From positions 1 through 35,426 of the IMG/VR virus record IMGVR_UViG_3300034072_000850: a stretch of 35,426 nucleotides of DNA; one strand, written 5' to 3'. Below the pieces are notes generated by a model, which saw only the letters and a list, made by a program, of their open reading frames with translations, was not told the origin of the DNA and made no database searches. Each line of letters opens with the position of its first letter. Position 1 is the first letter of the stretch. Shown here in pieces: positions 15,809-24,542 of this stretch. The translations under genes and the position numbers were made by a program. This DNA is from a virus.

Positions 15809-16900
15809 TTAGAAGCTGTCGCGGTAGACGATGGCCTTGGGCAGGCGGACGTCCACACCACCAACGTTCATGATGCCGCCGACCTCGTAGACGAGGCTCG
15901 ACTTCTGGAACGCGGGCAGGAACTGGTGTGCGCCAGGCAGCATGAACTTGAGCACCTGCGGATTGTTGTCGTAGGCGATCATGCGCTTGGTGCCACCGGT
16001 CCCGGCAGTCTCCAGCTCGCGGCTCTTGACGATGGTCAGCGATTCACCGGCCACATTGTTCGCCATCAGGAAGGCGAGAATGGTGCCGTCGCCCTGACCG
16101 ACGCGGGTCGTGGCGATGTAGTTGTAGCTCGACGTGGGCAGAGCCAGCGTGTTCGCGATGTGCGTCTCGCCGGTGCCGGTTTCGACAGCGGTCAGCGCCT
16201 CGTTGATGTCGCGCAGGATCTGATCCGGCGTCTTGGTCGACCAGGTGCGGGTCGAGCCGGTGCCGTCAGCAGCAACCTGAGCCGAGGGGGCCGAGGCGTT
16301 GTTGATGAAGCCGGTCCAGCCCTTTTCGTTCTCACCGCGCGGCGTCTTGCCGGTCATGGCAATGCCATAGATGAAGCGGTCGGAAGCCTGAACAGCGGCC
16401 TGCGCCTTGTCGGACGAGAGCGAGCGACCGAGCTTGGCTGCACGCTGCATTTCCTGCGTGTTCCATTCGTAGCCGATCGCGGCCAGATGGAAGTTGCGGG
16501 TCTTCTGGTCCATGAGGGTCGAAGCGTACGGCATATCGAACGCGCCGCCGGCCATGAACTCGGCCTGGCCAACCTTGTCCATCGAGTAAACGACGGTGCC
16601 GACGTCCCACATGTCGCCGCTGGTATCGATCGTCATGAAGCGGCTGATGTCGAACGAGGGGTACTTGATCGAGTAGACCTCGGCCTCGATGCGATACAGC
16701 TGCGGCGTCAGGAAGGAGATGCCCACCTGAGCGTCGCTGAAGAACGCATCGACCTTATCAGCAAAGGTCGCGGCGTGGCGGGCGTTGTCGTTCGCCCATG
16801 CCGCGATGACCTGCTTCTTCACGGCAGCATCGGCCACCATGAATGCATCGGGATCGCTGATCCGGCCAGAAGCGCGGTCGAAGAACGGAAGTGCGGTCAT
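15809..16900 (-). CDS. Major capsid protein (DUF2184 family)
   Basis: A 363-residue shell protein of the HK97 fold. DUF2184 features include SFDISRFMTIDTSGDMWDVG, FHLAAIGYEWNTQEMQRAA, and the conserved C-terminal beta region with KFMLPGAHQFLPAF and VYEVGGIMNVGGVDVRLPKA. Its position after the protease/scaffold and cement genes fits. ATG 16900 has a GGGGA site. It has no long N-terminal delta domain, consistent with a separate scaffold. Confidence 0.9.
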   Translation of the reverse strand: MTALPFFDRASGRISDPDAFMVADAAVKKQVIAAWANDNARHAATFADKVDAFFSDAQVGISFLTPQLYRIEAEVYSIKYPSFDISRFMTIDTSGDMWDVGTVVYSMDKVGQAEFMAGGAFDMPYASTLMDQKTRNFHLAAIGYEWNTQEMQRAAKLGRSLSSDKAQAAVQASDRFIYGIAMTGKTPRGENEKGWTGFINNASAPSAQVAADGTGSTRTWSTKTPDQILRDINEALTAVETGTGETHIANTLALPTSSYNYIATTRVGQGDGTILAFLMANNVAGESLTIVKSRELETAGTGGTKRMIAYDNNPQVLKFMLPGAHQFLPAFQKSSLVYEVGGIMNVGGVDVRLPKAIVYRDSF

Positions 16901-16912
16901 GTCAGGTTCCCC

Positions 16913-17380
16913 TTAGCGCTTCACGATGCGGCAAAGGCCGTCCGTGACAGTTTCGTCTGCGATCCAACCGGTCGCGATGTGGGTGGCGTCAGCAGCGGTT
17001 GCGCCGATCAGGTCTGCGGCACCGCCACCAGTGCCCACGGTCAGCGCAGCGCCGTCCGTGACAGCACCCTTGACCGGGACGTAGATCGCGCCCGAGGTCA
17101 GGATGGTGGCGTTGTCGTACTGCTGATATTCGTCGGCATCCTGCCCCGCGACGTAACCGAGCGCCGAGGTGGCGACGGTCCAGCCAAGGAAGGTGGCAAG
17201 GGTGCCAACGGTGCCGGTGCAGCCGTGGTCGCCGGAGCCGCGATAGACGGGCTTGCCGAAACCGATGCCGGCAGCATCTTCGACGGTGCGGCTGATGCGG
17301 TTCGAGGTCTCGCCATTGGCGATCATACCGGCGTAGCCCTTGGCGACGGTGCCGGTGTAGCTGGTCTGCATTTCAGGCAT
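16913..17380 (-). CDS. Structural cement protein (Gp24-like)
   Basis: A 155-residue Gly/Ala/Thr-rich beta protein: MPEMQTSYTGTVAKGYAGMI, GFGKPVYRGSGDHGC, and repeated GAAxT segments. This resembles the Gp24-like cement proteins that sit on the capsid surface and lie between protease/scaffold and major capsid genes. AGGAGG lies 7 nt before the ATG, suggesting strong expression. It is one of the most repetitive, low-charge proteins here. Confidence 0.8.
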   Translation of the reverse strand: MPEMQTSYTGTVAKGYAGMIANGETSNRISRTVEDAAGIGFGKPVYRGSGDHGCTGTVGTLATFLGWTVATSALGYVAGQDADEYQQYDNATILTSGAIYVPVKGAVTDGAALTVGTGGGAADLIGATAADATHIATGWIADETVTDGLCRIVKR

Positions 17381-17392
17381 TGATCAGCCTCC

Positions 17393-17860
17393 TTATGCGT
17401 AGCGCGCGTGGCGGATGGACGAGACGATGGCAGCAGAATCGGTGATCGGCGCCGGGGTGAGGTTGTGGACATGCGGTGCAGCGTCCGAGACCTTCATGTC
17501 AGCCGTCAGAGCAGCGAACGAGGCGGCGAACTGGGCGTCGGTCCAATCCTTGGCGGTGTCGCCGAGCTTGGCGGTGACGGCTGCGCGCATGATGGCGGGC
17601 TCGTCCATTGCGTCGGTGACGGCGACGCCAAGCGCCTTGGCCTTGTCAGCGACGATCTGGAACGAACGTGCGGCATCACGCAGCTGGGCAGGGGTCAGCT
17701 TGGCATCGGCCAGCTGCTTTTCCAGCGTCACGACCTTGGCTTCGAGCGAGGCCTTGTCGGTGGCGTAAGTGGCAAGCTTGGCATTCAGAGAATCGACAGC
17801 GATCCGAACGGCCTCACCGTTCGTCGCGTCGACTTCGGCGTCGCCGATCTTAATCTTCAT
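17393..17860 (-). CDS. Nested in-frame scaffold protein
   Basis: An internal ATG at 17860, in frame with the protease gene, is preceded by GGAG 8 nt away (GGAGAAAACACG). It would give the 155-residue scaffold domain alone, starting MKIKIGDAEVDATNG. This copies the lambda C/Nu3 and related arrangements, where free scaffold is made in excess from an internal start. The site is exactly at the domain boundary. It needs experimental proof. Confidence 0.55.
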   Translation of the reverse strand: MKIKIGDAEVDATNGEAVRIAVDSLNAKLATYATDKASLEAKVVTLEKQLADAKLTPAQLRDAARSFQIVADKAKALGVAVTDAMDEPAIMRAAVTAKLGDTAKDWTDAQFAASFAALTADMKVSDAAPHVHNLTPAPITDSAAIVSSIRHARYA

Positions 17861-18643
17861 CGTGTTTTCTCCGTAAACAAGAGCATCCATTTTCATCGGT
17901 TTTTCCGATGGGTCGGATTCGAGTTCAGAAAGCGCGCGCATCATTTGCGACATCATGAGTTTTTGGCTTTTTTCGCCAGCAACTCCGGTAGTAGGAGCAG
18001 TGCCGTTCATATGCTTTTCGTGCAGCGATATGGCCTTCTTGAGTAAAGAAATTGCCTCGCTGACGCCATCCGCCAAAGGCGTAGAACCCGATCGTTCATC
18101 GCTGATTTTGAGTTCCGGCCCGCCCCGAGCGGCAGGAACTGCGGCGATATGGTTGATGCGCACGTCGCGCTGTACAGCGTCGTAGGCTTGCCCGTCCGGC
18201 GTTGTGCCGGGGGTAGCGTCGAGGGTGCAGGTGTAGCCCATCGACAGTTGCTTGTGCGTGCTGCGGACCTTGGCCACGGCAGCAGCATCACGAACAATGA
18301 TGGGAACCCGCACGAATTCACCGTCGCGAACTACATCACCGTTGATTTCGCCAACGCCATAGGTCCGCCAGTTGTCGGCAGTGACCATGACAGACGGGTG
18401 ATCGATTGTGACTGGAGCGGCTGAGAAGCTGGCGAGGCTATCGCGCTTGAACACTTCGTCGGCAGGGCGATAAACGCGGACGGTTTCCTTGTCGCGCAGA
18501 CCAAGCTCGCCAGTCGGATCTACTTCCCGCCCAAGGTACTGCTGGATGCCAGTCCGCGCACCCCGCACCTCCGCAACGAGCGAACCATCCGCGCAAATGC
18601 GGGCGGTTGTAGCGGCATCGAGGGTGTCGAAAAGTTGCACCAT
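17393..18643 (-). CDS. Capsid maturation protease with scaffold (DUF2213)
   Basis: A 416-residue protein. Residues 1-180 form the DUF2213 prohead protease (TVRVYRPADEVFKRDSL, APVTIDHPSVMV, QLSMGYTCTLD, INHIAAVPAARGG). Residues about 182-262 are a charged, less G+C-rich linker. Residues 262-416 are the scaffold, with a coiled coil near SLEAKVVTLEKQLADAKL and a C-terminal helix that should bind capsid subunits. The His and Ser of the protease are probably in IDHPSV and QLSMGY. ATG 18643 has no Shine-Dalgarno and is preceded by the 13-bp element at 33 nt. Confidence 0.87.
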   Translation of the reverse strand: MVQLFDTLDAATTARICADGSLVAEVRGARTGIQQYLGREVDPTGELGLRDKETVRVYRPADEVFKRDSLASFSAAPVTIDHPSVMVTADNWRTYGVGEINGDVVRDGEFVRVPIIVRDAAAVAKVRSTHKQLSMGYTCTLDATPGTTPDGQAYDAVQRDVRINHIAAVPAARGGPELKISDERSGSTPLADGVSEAISLLKKAISLHEKHMNGTAPTTGVAGEKSQKLMMSQMMRALSELESDPSEKPMKMDALVYGENTMKIKIGDAEVDATNGEAVRIAVDSLNAKLATYATDKASLEAKVVTLEKQLADAKLTPAQLRDAARSFQIVADKAKALGVAVTDAMDEPAIMRAAVTAKLGDTAKDWTDAQFAASFAALTADMKVSDAAPHVHNLTPAPITDSAAIVSSIRHARYA

Positions 18644-18676: not shown

Positions 18677-18689
18677 TTACCGCCGTCAG
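18677..18689 (-). promoter_or_regulatory. Copy 5 of the late-gene upstream element
   Basis: Exact 13-bp match on the minus strand, 33 nt before the protease/scaffold start. The TGA inside it is the stop codon of the minor head protein gene, so the element is shared between coding and control functions. Confidence 0.65.
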
Positions 18690-19510
18690 AACTCGCCCGT
18701 CAAAGACAAGACCGCGCGCGAGGTGCAACCGCAATTGATAAGCTGCGCCGGGCGGTCAGCGGGCGGCTTGTACTGGCCAGAAGTCGCCTCATCATCGTAT
18801 CGTTTGCCATTGCGACTGGCATGATCGACGCGGGCGTGAACCTTACCCGAAGACACCCATTCCCACATTGATAGACCGGCTTGGGTGCGCCGCTCCTCGT
18901 TCATCGTTTCAGATATCTTGCTGGTCTGGTCGGATGCGATGCGTAGCGATCGAGCGCGAGCCATGCCCACTGCCTCGCGAATATCGGCGGCGACCTCGCG
19001 TGGGACTTTGCGCTCTGACAAGCCCCGCAGAACAGCATCATTGATTCTGTCTCGTGTCTGATCGGACACTGACCGGACCAAGGCAACGTTACGTTCCACC
19101 AGCGTTGACAGCGGCGCGCGCATGTCGCCGACGCCCATCATGGCTGACACGTCGAGACCGGTGGCGCGCTTGATTGCACTTGCCCAGCGCCTGCGGTGCG
19201 CCGCCTCGACGATTGCGGCCCAACGCTCAAGGCGGAGGCGCAAGGTCACCATCAATTGCGAGATACCGGCCTCGACACTGACGACGACACCAGACAGTTC
19301 CGGTGCCGCATCGGTAGTCAACTGGCTGTAGCTGCGCTCGTATTCCGCCGTGATCGCGGCGAGACCTTCTTCCCATGCTTTGACGACGGGGTTGTAGGCG
19401 GTGGCGTAGAGGTCAGATGCCAGTGTCGCGGGGAGGGTGACTTCGCGGAAGGTGACGGTGCGTTTGCGGGGCCTGCGCTGGGCATACATTGCGGCGAGGT
19501 TGTAGCGCAT
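18686..19510 (-). CDS. Minor head protein (Mu gpF / SPP1 gp7 type)
   Basis: A 274-residue mostly helical protein. The C-terminal signature EWVSSGKVHARVDHASRNGKRYD, then PADRPAQLINCGCTSRAVL, contains the His and Cys pair typical of Phage_Mu_F domains. It lies between portal and protease, the usual position. These proteins bind the portal and are packaged in the head in few copies. The stop codon is part of the 13-bp element ahead of the protease. Confidence 0.88.
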   Translation of the reverse strand: MRYNLAAMYAQRRPRKRTVTFREVTLPATLASDLYATAYNPVVKAWEEGLAAITAEYERSYSQLTTDAAPELSGVVVSVEAGISQLMVTLRLRLERWAAIVEAAHRRRWASAIKRATGLDVSAMMGVGDMRAPLSTLVERNVALVRSVSDQTRDRINDAVLRGLSERKVPREVAADIREAVGMARARSLRIASDQTSKISETMNEERRTQAGLSMWEWVSSGKVHARVDHASRNGKRYDDEATSGQYKPPADRPAQLINCGCTSRAVLSLTGEF

Positions 19511-19512
19511 GC

Positions 19513-19740
19513 TTATTTCCGCGACGGCGGGGGTGTCGCTGGCTTGCCGTTTCTCGACAGTTCATGAACCGGTGTCTGGCAAACTGGACAGGTCACGGTC
19601 ACAAAGTCGCCATCGCGTTGGTCGCTGGTATGCTTGGTATCGCTGCGGAGGAATCGCAGTTCTGACCCGCATTGGGTGCACCCGGCTTCAAACTGGTCGT
19701 TCTCTGGCAGGTGGCCGCGCCGGATTACTTTGATTGCCAT
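19513..19740 (-). CDS. Small zinc-ribbon protein
   Basis: A 75-residue protein with two Cys pairs, CTQCG near residues 21-25 and CPVC near residues 51-54, forming a likely zinc ribbon, and a Pro/Ser/Lys tail. It lies directly between the Acb2-like gene and the minor head protein gene, with stop and start only 2 nt apart on each side. Small zinc-ribbon proteins are frequent next to portal genes. No function is known, and a part in counter-defence cannot be excluded because of its neighbours. Confidence 0.75.
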   Translation of the reverse strand: MAIKVIRRGHLPENDQFEAGCTQCGSELRFLRSDTKHTSDQRDGDFVTVTCPVCQTPVHELSRNGKPATPPPSRK

Positions 19741-19742
19741 GG

Positions 19743-19997
19743 TTACGCCGTGATATGCTTAACCGCCCACATGACGGCCTCTTCGATCTTTTGCCTTGCA
19801 ATGTCGATCTCGCGCGACGCAGGCATGTTGGCCGCCCTAACTTCGATTTGGTTCACCAAGGTCAGGAACTCTGCGCCTTTGTCCTTGATCGCCACCATCT
19901 GTGCCTTCTCGGCATCGCTCAGGACGCGATATGTATGGCGGACGGCATTGTTGGCGGTGCGCGCATCGCTGGCGCTGTCGACGTGTTCGGTCATCAT
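19743..19997 (-). CDS. Acb2/Tad1-type cyclic-nucleotide sponge candidate
   Basis: An 84-residue helical protein from ATG 19997 (or 19994). The core HTYRVLSDAEKAQMVAIKDK followed by GAEFL, and the C-terminal EEAVMWAVKHITA, resemble the Acb2/Tad1 hairpin family. As I recall, Acb2 of phage PaMx33 uses Tyr11 and Lys26 to bind cyclic dinucleotides; Tyr23 and Lys38 here have the same 15-residue spacing. Family members form oligomers that trap CBASS or Thoeris signals. The start overlaps the stop of the portal-Acb1 gene (TGATG), so the two are translationally coupled. The ligand is unknown. Confidence 0.75.
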   Translation of the reverse strand: MMTEHVDSASDARTANNAVRHTYRVLSDAEKAQMVAIKDKGAEFLTLVNQIEVRAANMPASREIDIARQKIEEAVMWAVKHITA

Positions 19998-21949
19998 CAA
20001 CTCTCCATCACCTTCGACTTCCAATCCGGATCAATCGGCTCGAAGATTTCCGGACCGAAGCGCAGTTCGCCGGAATAAGGCTTCAGTGCTTCAAGATCGA
20101 TGTCGCCTGCCTCATACGAGATCGTGACATGCGGCAGATAATCCGGCCAATCATGGCTTGCACCGGCCTGAACCATGTCACGATGACGTGATTCCAGAGA
20201 CCAAGACGCGAACTGCAGGACGAGTGCACCTTCGCCGAACCGTTCAAGCGCACGCGGTCCGCCAGCCTTTATGACAAGACCACCATCGGGATCGCTCGAC
20301 CAGCCTTCGCCCATCTGCATGGGATCGACAGGCTGCTTGGAATATAGGACAGTGACGTGGAGCTGGTCGGCCGGCATCGTCGCTTTGACCCCGACACCCC
20401 GAGCCCAGTCGATCAGCTCACCGGCGTTCAAGAGCCTACGGTAGACGTAGAGCGGGCGGGGGGTTGCGTCGCCAAACGGAATGATGCCGCCGCCACCAAT
20501 GAACAACTCTGGTCGGCGGTCGTTCGCAGCAACACGGACAGGCGGAGCGCTTCCAATCGATCCGCCTGCGCCGGTAGACGTCGGATCACCTCCTTCCTGT
20601 GATGGATCGCCGAGCGAAGGATCGGCAACGATGCCGAAGCGCTCGGCCTCGGGTATCTTGGCCAGCGCCTGCCCCAGACCAGGCATCCATTCGCCTTCGA
20701 CAAGCGTGTTCTGCGCCGCCTCGTTGAAAGCCTGCTCCGGCATGGCGTTGAGAGTGGCGATCGTGTTCAGCGCCTCGGCCACCGTCTTGAAGCGGGTCGC
20801 GGTCTTGTCTTCGTCCGGCGCTTCGAGCGGTTCGAAGTCGTAGTCTACCTTTGCAGGGGTTGAGCCGAGCGCGGAGGGGACGAGATAGACGTCGAGTTGA
20901 TCCAGACACGGCGCCATCTGCAGCGTCTGCTTGGCCCGGATCTTCTTTACCCAATCCTTTTGCTGTCCGTCGCCGCTGCTGTTCAAGCCCTCAGGAGCGC
21001 GGCCGAGCAGGCGTGTCGCCGGAATGTCGGACACGGCACAGACAAAATCGGCGTAGGCGTTGATCACGTCCTTTGCGCCGGCAAAGTTGTAGCTGATGTC
21101 ATCGATCTTCTCGGCCGGGCCATCAGCCCCGTTGCCGCTATCGAAGACCGTCGCGTTGTACATGCTTTCGGCAATCGCGATGATCTGCATGCGGGCGCCG
21201 ACCTTGGCCTCGCCGTCAACGGTGGCAACGACTTCGGAAAGGTTCGGGATACCGATGCGGGTCAGGCGGGCCTTGTGGAGCAGCGCGGCGAAGGAGGCGC
21301 GGGCGGTGTCGCTGTCCTTCACCGCATCAAGCACCTGCTGGACGGTGCTCTCACCCCAGTAGGTATCGGCACTATGGGCGGCAAATGGCGCTGCCAGACT
21401 GCCGCTGGTATCTGCCTTGAACGCAATGACGCGGCTCGGGTGGATATCGACCATCCCGCCCTCGGTCTGCATCTGCCACATCACAGGCTCGCCATAACCG
21501 GGCCGTGTCGCGTCAGTGCTCAGGGCCTGGAACGTCAGGTGCCAGCGCGAGACGACGTGGATGTAGGCGAGGCCGCCTTTGCCGATCGAGCGAGGTGCAG
21601 GGGTGTCTGGCCTGCCGGGGAGGCCAAGCACGAATGCACCACCACCGAGGCCGCGCAGTGTTTCAACGAGCAGAAGCTTCTGTGCAAGCTGGAGGCGCTT
21701 CTCCTCCGCTTCGAGAGCCTCGATCTCCTCGCGTTCCATTTCCCAGCAGCGACCTTCACGGACCATATCGAGCGCAGGGATCTGGATGATCTTCCGCATC
21801 AGGCCGGAGCCTGTGTAAGCGGCATGGATCTCGTGCTGAGTCAGCGGGCGAGTGGCGCAGTAAGTCGATGCAGTTCTGGCATCGCGGCTTGTGCCTTGGC
21901 CGGTCAGGGCGTTCCTGAGGCCGTCAACGAATTGGAGAACCTTGCCCAT
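19997..21949 (-). CDS. Portal protein fused to Acb1-like 2H phosphoesterase
   Basis: A 650-residue protein. Residues 1 to about 445 are a DUF1073-type portal (LTQHEIHAAYTGSGLMRKII, VVSRWHLTFQ, WGESTVQQVLDAVKD, PATRLLGRAPEGLNSSGDGQ), the dodecameric DNA gate of the head. A Gly/Ser/Pro-rich linker (about 446-497) joins a C-terminal domain of about 150 residues with two HxT motifs, H531-V-T533 and H607-V-T609. This is the two-histidine phosphoesterase signature of anti-CBASS Acb1, which degrades cyclic oligonucleotide signals. The ATG lacks a Shine-Dalgarno and lies 33 nt after a copy of the 13-bp element. Catalysis is inferred, not shown. Confidence 0.88.
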   Translation of the reverse strand: MGKVLQFVDGLRNALTGQGTSRDARTASTYCATRPLTQHEIHAAYTGSGLMRKIIQIPALDMVREGRCWEMEREEIEALEAEEKRLQLAQKLLLVETLRGLGGGAFVLGLPGRPDTPAPRSIGKGGLAYIHVVSRWHLTFQALSTDATRPGYGEPVMWQMQTEGGMVDIHPSRVIAFKADTSGSLAAPFAAHSADTYWGESTVQQVLDAVKDSDTARASFAALLHKARLTRIGIPNLSEVVATVDGEAKVGARMQIIAIAESMYNATVFDSGNGADGPAEKIDDISYNFAGAKDVINAYADFVCAVSDIPATRLLGRAPEGLNSSGDGQQKDWVKKIRAKQTLQMAPCLDQLDVYLVPSALGSTPAKVDYDFEPLEAPDEDKTATRFKTVAEALNTIATLNAMPEQAFNEAAQNTLVEGEWMPGLGQALAKIPEAERFGIVADPSLGDPSQEGGDPTSTGAGGSIGSAPPVRVAANDRRPELFIGGGGIIPFGDATPRPLYVYRRLLNAGELIDWARGVGVKATMPADQLHVTVLYSKQPVDPMQMGEGWSSDPDGGLVIKAGGPRALERFGEGALVLQFASWSLESRHRDMVQAGASHDWPDYLPHVTISYEAGDIDLEALKPYSGELRFGPEIFEPIDPDWKSKVMES

Positions 21950-22056: not shown

Positions 22057-22089
22057 GTGGATTATACACGGCAAGCAGGGGTTAAAGAT

Positions 22090-23091
22090 ATGCGTGGAGC
22101 ATCCAAAGGCGGCATCGAACGGGCGCGAAGCCTGAGCGCGGAAGAGCGAACCATGATCGCAAGAGAAGCTGCCTCAGCAAGGTGGTTAAAGGCTAAATCG
22201 GTTCCTGATGGCGAGCTTCCTAGAGCCACGCATCAAGGCAAGGTCTTGCTCGGCGATGTTGAGCTTGATTGCTACGTTTTGGCTGACGGCCGACGGGTAA
22301 TCCATAAGCGTGGAATGGCAAAAGCACTTAACCTGAAGTCAGCGGGTGGAAATGCGTTTCTACGGTCGATGACTAGGAAAGGCATAGGATCCGAACTCGA
22401 TCAGAAATTGATCGAAACCATTGAAAATCCATTATTTTTTAAGCCTCTGACACAGGATTCGGCACACGGCTATGACGCAGATGTTTTGGTTGAGGTTTGC
22501 AAAGCAGTGCTTAGGGCGAAGGATGCTGGAAAACTAACGAAGTCGCAGGGATTTCTGGCAGCGCAGGCGAGTGTGCTGCTTAGTGCCTTTGCAAAGGTCG
22601 GTGTAGCTGCCCTCATTGATGAGGCTACTGGCTTCCAAGACATTAGAAGCCCAGATGCATTGCGGATTCTCGTCCAACAGTACATCGCCGCCGAAATGCG
22701 TGAATGGGAAAAGCAGTTCCCTGACGAATACTACGATCGTTTAAACGATCTTTACGGAAGCAAGAAGCGCACGAAAACCAACTCTGGTGCAGTAATTCAA
22801 AATAGACCGCAGCACTTCGCGCAGTTCACACGATCGTACGTGTACCATCCGCTTGAAGATGGTGCAGTTCTAGACGAGCTTGACCGGCTAAATCCAAAGG
22901 TGGGGCAATCTGGAAGCAGGAAGCGCCGCTTCCATCAGCACCTGTCAGAAGGATATGGTATTGAGAAGCTTAAACGCCAAATTCAAGAGGTGATGACACT
23001 CGCATCTGTTTCTGACAATATTTCACAATTTAGGAAGCTTTTTAAAAAGCGCTTCCCGAAAATTGGAGATCAACTCGATCTTGACGTTTGA
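22090..23091 (+). CDS. P63C-domain protein, probable moron
   Basis: A 333-residue protein on the opposite strand to the flanking portal and terminase genes. ATG 22090 is preferred because AGGGG lies 8 nt upstream; the in-frame GTG at 22057 abuts the -10 box. The N-terminal third has a KGGIERARSLSAEERTMIA helix and a predicted small beta/helix domain. The C-terminal part (PDEYYDRLNDLYG, FTRSYVYHPLEDGAVLDELDRLNP, HQHLSEGYGIEKLKRQI) matches phage P63C proteins of unknown function. The gene is visibly AT-richer than its neighbours, pointing to recent transfer. It could act in lysogeny, defence or as an antirepressor-like regulator. Confidence 0.85.
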   Translation: MRGASKGGIERARSLSAEERTMIAREAASARWLKAKSVPDGELPRATHQGKVLLGDVELDCYVLADGRRVIHKRGMAKALNLKSAGGNAFLRSMTRKGIGSELDQKLIETIENPLFFKPLTQDSAHGYDADVLVEVCKAVLRAKDAGKLTKSQGFLAAQASVLLSAFAKVGVAALIDEATGFQDIRSPDALRILVQQYIAAEMREWEKQFPDEYYDRLNDLYGSKKRTKTNSGAVIQNRPQHFAQFTRSYVYHPLEDGAVLDELDRLNPKVGQSGSRKRRFHQHLSEGYGIEKLKRQIQEVMTLASVSDNISQFRKLFKKRFPKIGDQLDLDV

Positions 23092-23105: not shown

Positions 23106-24542
23106 TCACGTCAGGGCCTCTAGGCTATACCGCCCACCCAACGCCACCCCATCAAACGCCCGCGAAGTGCTATCCGCATCGTCATCATGCTTGGCCGTAG
23201 GGAAGTTCTCGAGTGCACTGAACCAGCGATCATTCCAGGGCGCGCGCAAGACGTCGACGTTGCCTGCCTCTGCCTGCGCTGAGAAGGGACTGAAGCGGGT
23301 GATCTTGTCGCCGGTCTCGGTGCTCGACCGGACGTTGTAGCCCGACAGCTTGAGCTTGAAGTTCGCAACTTGGCTCTTGCCTGCCTGTCCCGGATCCTGC
23401 GGAATGCTGATCTTGCAGCCCTTGCCGTCCTGAGAGGCCGTGTTCTGGATCAGCCGCTCGACGCCCGCAGGTGAGAGGCAATCGTTGTGGCTGTCGACTA
23501 CGATGTACCGCCCGCTCGGCATTCGCCCGATCTTGGTGCTTGATGTCGCATCGGGATCAGGGTTCTCGGCGGTGCGCTGTGTCGCGCCCAAGTCATACCC
23601 GCGACAGAACACGGTACCGGCCGGAACGGCGTCAACGACCTGGCACCATGCGCGCTGGAAATAGAGCCCCGCCGCAGGCCTGATCTTCCAGTTACCGCCA
23701 AGCAGGCGTTCGCGCTCGACCAGCGGCAGTGCAAGCAGCGACGCCATGTAGCCGGGGTCGGCTGCCATCAGCGCCTTGTTGTCGGTCAGCTTGGCTGGAA
23801 TGAACGTCAGCGACTTGGCGGGGATCGGGACCTGCTCGCCCGCGTCGTTGATCATCGTGTAGCAGGCGAGGTCTTCAGGGCTGTCGGCCCATTTCAGATC
23901 TTCGCCGACACGCACGAACCAGCGGACGACGCCAGAGCGCTCCGGAATCGGCAGGCCGGTGTCTTGATCAATCCACCAAGCAATCAGATCAGCAACCCAG
24001 CTATCGGCATCGGGGTTGCAGGTCGCGCGGATATACGGCCGGACACCACACATCGAGCGGTTGCGGCTGACCATGTACCAGAACTGCACGGCGCTGAAGT
24101 GTGTGAGCTCGTCGAAGCATATCAGCGGGATCTGGCTACCCTGCCAGTTGAAGCGGGTCTTGTCGTGTTCGAGGTGGGCAAAGCTGACTGACGAGCCCGA
24201 TGGGAACGACCACGACAGCGTGTGTTCCTTGGGCTCGCCGCCAACCTGCGGGTAAAGCACCGCGCTCTCATCCCAGAGACCGCCCTCGTTGCGGATCTGG
24301 ACCGTGGAGCGCCGGAAGAACACGGCGCCGAAGCCCGGATTGCTGATGTGCCGCATTGGCTCCATCAGCAGACCCCACGTCTTCCCACCGCCGGCACCAC
24401 CACCGTAGATCACGATGTCGGCAGGCGATGAAAGGAATGCGGTCTGTGGGCCGGGCTGAGGCTTGATCGTCTGGCCTTCGACGATCTGGGGGCCGCCGTT
24501 GTGGCCTAGGCCGGCAGTTGGGGTGGCTAGGGCAACGGTCAT
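23106..24542 (-). CDS. terL: Terminase large subunit
   Basis: A 478-residue DNA-packaging motor. Walker A is GGGAGGGKT (residues 47-55), Walker B is LICFDE near residue 142, and the C-terminal RNase H-like nuclease has its first Asp in CRGYDLGATQ and further acidic residues in RYIVVDSHND. The first 35 residues are a Gly/Pro-rich extension. ATG 24542 overlaps the small subunit stop (ATGA). The portal gene follows only after an inserted plus-strand gene. Confidence 0.93.
   Translation of the reverse strand: MTVALATPTAGLGHNGGPQIVEGQTIKPQPGPQTAFLSSPADIVIYGGGAGGGKTWGLLMEPMRHISNPGFGAVFFRRSTVQIRNEGGLWDESAVLYPQVGGEPKEHTLSWSFPSGSSVSFAHLEHDKTRFNWQGSQIPLICFDELTHFSAVQFWYMVSRNRSMCGVRPYIRATCNPDADSWVADLIAWWIDQDTGLPIPERSGVVRWFVRVGEDLKWADSPEDLACYTMINDAGEQVPIPAKSLTFIPAKLTDNKALMAADPGYMASLLALPLVERERLLGGNWKIRPAAGLYFQRAWCQVVDAVPAGTVFCRGYDLGATQRTAENPDPDATSSTKIGRMPSGRYIVVDSHNDCLSPAGVERLIQNTASQDGKGCKISIPQDPGQAGKSQVANFKLKLSGYNVRSSTETGDKITRFSPFSAQAEAGNVDVLRAPWNDRWFSALENFPTAKHDDDADSTSRAFDGVALGGRYSLEALT

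Follow-up and report, generated by a model that had tools for sequence, protein, structure and literature searches.

A portal protein with an Acb1-type tail and an overlapping Acb2-like gene: a putative counter-defence pair in a viral head operon

Organization of the locus

The window, i.e. the complete stretch of DNA analysed here, is a 35,426-bp viral record from IMG/VR. Its head genes follow the order terminase, opposite-strand P63C-domain gene, portal-Acb1 fusion, Acb2-like gene, zinc-ribbon-like protein, MuF-like protein, DUF2213 protein, cement protein and capsid, with the following features:

23106..24542, minus strand: large terminase subunit, encoded upstream of the portal gene (PF03237/PF17289)
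22057-23091, plus strand: P63C-domain gene (PHROG 2384), which interrupts the terminase/portal order
19997..21949, minus strand: portal-Acb1 fusion gene, 650 aa, a single open frame (PF06381, E 1.5e-93, and PF23474, E 4.9e-39; residues 8-644 match PHROG 146 'portal protein')
20765..21832, minus strand: portal core, residues 40-395 (Pfam PF06381; best Foldseek match Pam3 portal 8hds, E 2.3e-25)
20471..20614, minus strand: flexible linker, residues about 446-493 (pLDDT 35-54 at residues 441-490)
20006..20470, minus strand: Acb1 2H phosphoesterase domain, residues 494-648 (PF23474 at residues 499-645; TM 0.76 to FBB1 Acb1)
20351-20359, minus strand: HVT 531-533, first Acb1 tetrad motif of the portal C-terminal domain
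20123-20131, minus strand: HVT 607-609, second Acb1 tetrad motif of the same domain
19743..19997, minus strand: Acb2-like sponge gene with a product of 84 aa, or of 83 aa if translation begins at the second ATG (PF24729, E 6.6e-19)
19929-19931, minus strand: Y23 of the 84-aa Acb2-like protein
19884-19886, minus strand: K38 of the same protein
19513..19740, minus strand: small zinc-ribbon-like protein of 75 aa, encoded directly after Acb2 in the operon (weak DZR match)
18686..19510, minus strand: Mu gpF-like minor head protein (PF04233, E 9.6e-9)
15809..18643, minus strand: DUF2213 protein, cement protein and major capsid protein (PF09979, PF22758, PF09950)

The TGATG overlap between the portal gene and its neighbour, described in the first-pass annotation, is present: the portal stop TGA and the following ATG have one base in common. 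The exact start of the Acb2-like gene is uncertain because a second in-frame ATG, which would yield the 83-aa product, lies 3 nt further from the ribosome-binding-like sequence GGAGAG. A small zinc-ribbon-like gene also follows Acb2 in two other contigs (L020 and L122).

Identity of the portal C-terminal domain

The Pfam matches for portal, Acb1 and Acb2/Tad1 hairpin are all well above the cut-offs and far past chance. Assignment of the portal fold is based on PF06381 and on Foldseek matches to 8hds and other portals, and the gene is placed between terminase and minor head protein. The first-pass annotation had proposed that this portal ends in an Acb1-type domain with the two HVT motifs listed above, and its coordinates, strand and residues proved correct. 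In the AlphaFold model, a disordered linker is followed by a confident C-terminal domain (pLDDT mostly >90), which a Foldseek search placed within the 2H phosphoesterases, leading to FBB1 Acb1 (7t26/7t27; TMt 0.76 for 7t26) with the full tetrad present. A fold outside this class, named in the first-pass annotation as a result that would refute its proposal, was therefore not obtained. By alignment, H531, T533, H607 and T609 correspond to H44, T46, H113 and T115 of T4 Acb1, completing the HxT/HxT tetrad. The T4 Acb1 ligand contacts Y12, E141 and W147, with roles as given in PMC9117128, align with Y501, E637 and W643 of the portal. F107 of T4 Acb1 aligns with W601, i.e. with another aromatic residue, while W74 aligns with the non-aromatic E569, close to a conserved tryptophan (W550) which might serve in its place.

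Across about 159 related domains, part of them picked by patterns that span the catalytic motifs, H531, T533 and H607 are near-invariant. Because of this partial pattern selection, a set of 10 domains found by tblastn and aligned without pattern selection represents the cleaner conservation check; here the same three residues are invariant, with the second motif reading HxS in three of the ten. The domain scores 133.8 bits against the Pfam Acb1 model versus 17.1 bits, which is below the cut-off, against the 2'-5' RNA ligase family. Judged by these features, the C-terminal domain should destroy a bacterial alarm signal.

In the structure of the related Pam3 portal, the model covers 442 of 621 residues; the 179 left over correspond roughly in length to the linker and Acb1 together. 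We infer from this length that the unmodelled part is the linker and Acb1 domain, which would therefore be flexible or absent in the virion.

The Acb2-like protein

The small protein encoded next to the portal was likewise correctly recognized in the first-pass annotation as an Acb2/Tad1 hairpin: besides the PF24729 match, its seven best Foldseek matches are all Acb2, 8h2x and 7uq2 being among the matches (probability about 1). The weak E-values of these first seven (0.06-0.19) are expected because the protein is small and three-helical. Its model comprises helices at residues 11-22, 28-54 and 62-83, i.e. a short N-terminal helix and two long antiparallel ones. A PDB search with the protein as single sequence gave no match, and a profile was required; with 43 sequences, this profile reaches PaMx33 p26/Acb2 (8h2j, E 4.9e-4) and T4 Vs.4, and Tad1 weakly. 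The proposed equivalence of Tyr23 and Lys38, at their 15-residue spacing, to the Acb2 pair holds, as they align with Y11 and K26 of PaMx33 Acb2 (8h2j), which we take to be the Tyr/Lys ligand pair. Y23 is kept in 87 of 89 sequences and K38 in all 89. On sequence and model grounds, the gene is thus predicted to encode an Acb2-type sponge binding the same signals as Acb1. A further head-operon placement of an Acb2 relative was observed in Sinorhizobium phage Aussie (L015, 5983-6219), between the head-to-tail adaptor and stopper genes.

Distribution of Acb1 on head proteins

Counterparts spanning 80% or more of the fusion occur in 32 annotated phage records, and among the records listed the labels are portal, head or hypothetical protein. 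In loci from public contigs, Acb1 occurs on PF06381 portals (179 distinct ORFs), on HK97-type PF04860 portals (11), on Mu-type PF06074 portals (5) and, as an N-terminal fusion in one contig (L052), on an XkdF-type prohead protease. Three close HK97-type portals are without Acb1. In a sample of 398 genomes from one bacterial order, picked independently of the search patterns, the eight Acb1 matches comprise seven frames of 610-711 aa and one of 127 aa, the latter probably being the split fusion that also appears as L175. A class-level genome sample gave two strong Acb1 matches only, too few for statistics.

Further Acb1 contexts were noted. In L318 (1-3090), Acb1 is part of a long protein that also has two ADP-ribosyltransferase-type domains and seems to be one of the polyvalent phage proteins, and in a bacterial genome (L226, 5833-6894) a Gp49-like (toxin-type) domain is joined with Acb1. 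The portal-Acb1 reading of Synechococcus phage Yong-M3-232 (L004, 158-2144) is divided over two overlapping frames, which may be real or an assembly artefact. Programmed frameshifting as an explanation of split fusions was rejected, the Yong-M3-232 split being a 130-bp tandem duplication relative to Ssp-JY40. Production of free Acb1 from an internal start was rejected as well. Linkers contain in-frame starts with a Shine-Dalgarno-like sequence more often than control stretches do (28% versus 14%, in a count that misread minus-strand loci), but such starts vary in position and are absent from the window.

Pairing of Acb1 and Acb2

The first-pass annotation had read the two genes as a two-part anti-CBASS module, and this reading gains support from recurrent adjacency and from an independent second arrangement. 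In scans for Acb1 only, 17 loci also contained Acb2, which lay at most 300 nt away in 16 of them; in the scan for Acb2 only, Acb1 was adjacent in 12 of 80 loci, while among the remaining upstream genes examined no other identifiable family appeared more than twice. As some contigs are common to both scans, these counts are not fully independent. The second arrangement is that of L052: its Mu-type portal carries no Acb1, and after it come MuF, Acb2 and the Acb1-protease fusion, so that Acb2 again lies beside an Acb1-bearing head protein.

Over the portal tree, Acb2 as neighbour appears or disappears about 17 times (a few duplicate contigs being counted in), which implies that it was gained or lost repeatedly. 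With Acb2 next door in 22 of 132 scored rows of this tree, pairing is the minority state among portal-Acb1 fusions; in the order-level sample of 398 genomes, Acb1 and Acb2 meet in two genomes only and never side by side. The idea that the space between portal and MuF is a cargo slot for many counter-defence genes was discarded, as these two genes mostly lie close together and inserts of 350-800 nt are chiefly Acb2.

Cassette exchange and selection

In comparisons with three relatives (L016, L017 and L018), some 50-60% of nucleotides are identical just 5' of nt 1300 of the portal gene; identity rises to 80-98% over most of linker and Acb1, linker length differences aside, and is near random beyond the end of the portal-Acb1 gene. 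The jump near nt 1300 marks a recombination boundary close to the 5' side of the linker. Against close relatives, the Acb1 part displays dN values of 0.03-0.14 and dS values of 0.38-0.93 (portal dS ~1), with a dN/dS of about 0.07-0.16 for the Acb1 domain, and mean pairwise identity among 61 fusions is 58% for Acb1 and 38% for the portal part. Linker and Acb1 have therefore been swapped as a unit, under purifying selection.

Proposed role and alternative readings

The reading we prefer, with a probability of roughly 0.6, is that of a late, head-linked counter-defence pair, in which the portal-borne Acb1 and the overlapping Acb2-type sponge clear CBASS signals late in infection. This reading draws on the Pfam and fold assignments, the conserved catalytic and contact residues, the low dN/dS of the Acb1 domain, the occurrence of Acb1 on several kinds of head protein and its repeated adjacency to Acb2. 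The portal would bear its Acb1 phosphodiesterase on a flexible tail, and both activities would be made together with the head proteins, at a stage when head proteins reportedly trigger CBASS. Freshly synthesized portal, whether free or already part of a prohead under assembly, would cut cyclic di- and trinucleotides 3' of adenosine in the cytosol, while Acb2 would sequester signal that is uncut so far or poorly cut. In phages other than that of the window, a prohead protease has been described as CBASS trigger (PMC12409349) and capsid-gene mutations let phages escape CBASS (PMC10419184); Thoeris, like CBASS, can be set off by head proteins. Making a signal-cutting enzyme and a sponge late, along with the head, would suit such triggering by head proteins. 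Late timing is not a family rule, however, since T4 Acb1, encoded by a stand-alone gene, is active early (PMC11722364). Also counting against this reading are the minority state of the pairing with Acb2 and the lack of an aromatic residue aligned with T4 W74; moreover, a SMODS synthase match was obtained in only one of five host genomes tested.

A considerably less probable alternative is delivery with the virion, whereby up to twelve Acb1 copies packaged on the portal inside the head would enter the next cell with the DNA, the enzyme probably being released by linker proteolysis, and clear signal from the first minutes. Such delivery has been put forward in print for 2H-portal and 2H-MuF fusions (PMC5512222, PMC9503650), and is in line with the portal C-termini of E217 projecting into the head (PMC10329688), with the L318 protein belonging to a polyvalent class thought to be injected, and with the missing length in the Pam3 portal. 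Unresolved density is no proof of release, however, neither a cleavage site nor an ejection signal was found, and a prohead protease with N-terminal Acb1 (L052) is not an obvious delivery vehicle. Moreover, the portal ring of tailed phages itself remains in the head. In a broader version, of slightly lower probability still, Acb1 would be a mobile cassette attached to head proteins again and again; carried within the virion, it would disarm CBASS ahead of any phage gene expression in the next cell, with adjacent Acb2 as a late second line.

It is improbable that the domain is a 2H enzyme active on other molecules, for instance on RNA ends bearing a 2',3'-cyclic phosphate during RNA repair or tRNA processing. 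2H enzymes do have such activities and one PHROG matching the domain is labelled RNA ligase, yet the Pfam scores clearly favour Acb1, the C-terminal lid Trp and the adenosine-contact Glu of Acb1 are kept, the domain pairs with Acb2, and Iyer 2017 (PMC5512222) found such domains not to be associated with RNA ligases. The seemingly non-ordered domain of the Pam3 portal and its His-Ile-Ser second motif might point to a remnant, structural or in decay, that has no enzymatic function; this is very improbable given the near-invariant tetrad, the low dN/dS and repeated fusion onto unrelated head proteins.

Acb1 and Acb2 have earlier been described as comparatively rare and as confined to specific phage groups (PMC11722364). 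Here, Acb1 sits mostly unlabelled within 'portal protein' annotations of diverse phages and pairs with a putative sponge in the head operon. Hence, a testable question arises for existing phages (Pam3, phiPSA1, RHEph04-like), namely whether the anti-CBASS activity takes effect while heads are being assembled or is brought in by the infecting particle.

Comparison with known systems

The portal-2H fusion and its proposed anti-signalling role are already published (Iyer and Aravind 2017, 2022; PMC5512222, PMC9503650), and Pfam and PHROG models cover the fusion, too. As in the window, the 2H domain is there described on the portal and proposed to act against nucleotide signalling, while the passages concerned neither assign the 2H-portal and 2H-MuF fusions to Acb1 nor mention Acb2 adjacency or a prohead-protease fusion. 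What appears new is Acb1 on HK97-type and Mu-type portals and on one prohead protease, the linker-Acb1 cassette, and the almost invariable adjacency of Acb2 where it lies near Acb1. In the open-access literature searched, which leaves out most subscription papers, nothing was found on Acb2 as a recurrent neighbour, on the fusion to a prohead protease or on the exchange of the cassette.

Among the closest known counterparts is the portal of Pseudanabaena phage Pam3 (PDB 8HDS), which has the two-domain architecture in common with the window portal over its full length (phmmer E 1.3e-94). Its second motif is HIS instead of HVT, and the minor capsid gene follows directly after the portal, with no Acb2, unlike in the window. 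Acb1 itself (T4 gp57B; FBB1, 7T26) has in common with the window domain the 2H fold, the HxT/HxT tetrad and residues corresponding to Y12, E141 and W147. T4 Acb1, however, is a stand-alone small protein with early activity, whereas Acb1 of the window is a portal tail. In T4, an internal head protein gene lies directly after acb1 (L242, 571-1390), and T4 has Acb2, too (Vs.4). The Acb2 proteins (PaMx33 p26, T4 Vs.4) and Tad1 have the helical hairpin, the Y/K pair at 15-residue spacing and the SRE...EEAxMWAxK signature in common with the window protein, which in turn differs from them by its identity of only about 20%, by being encoded among head genes and by the conserved N-terminal DxRTxNNxxRH stretch of its subfamily.
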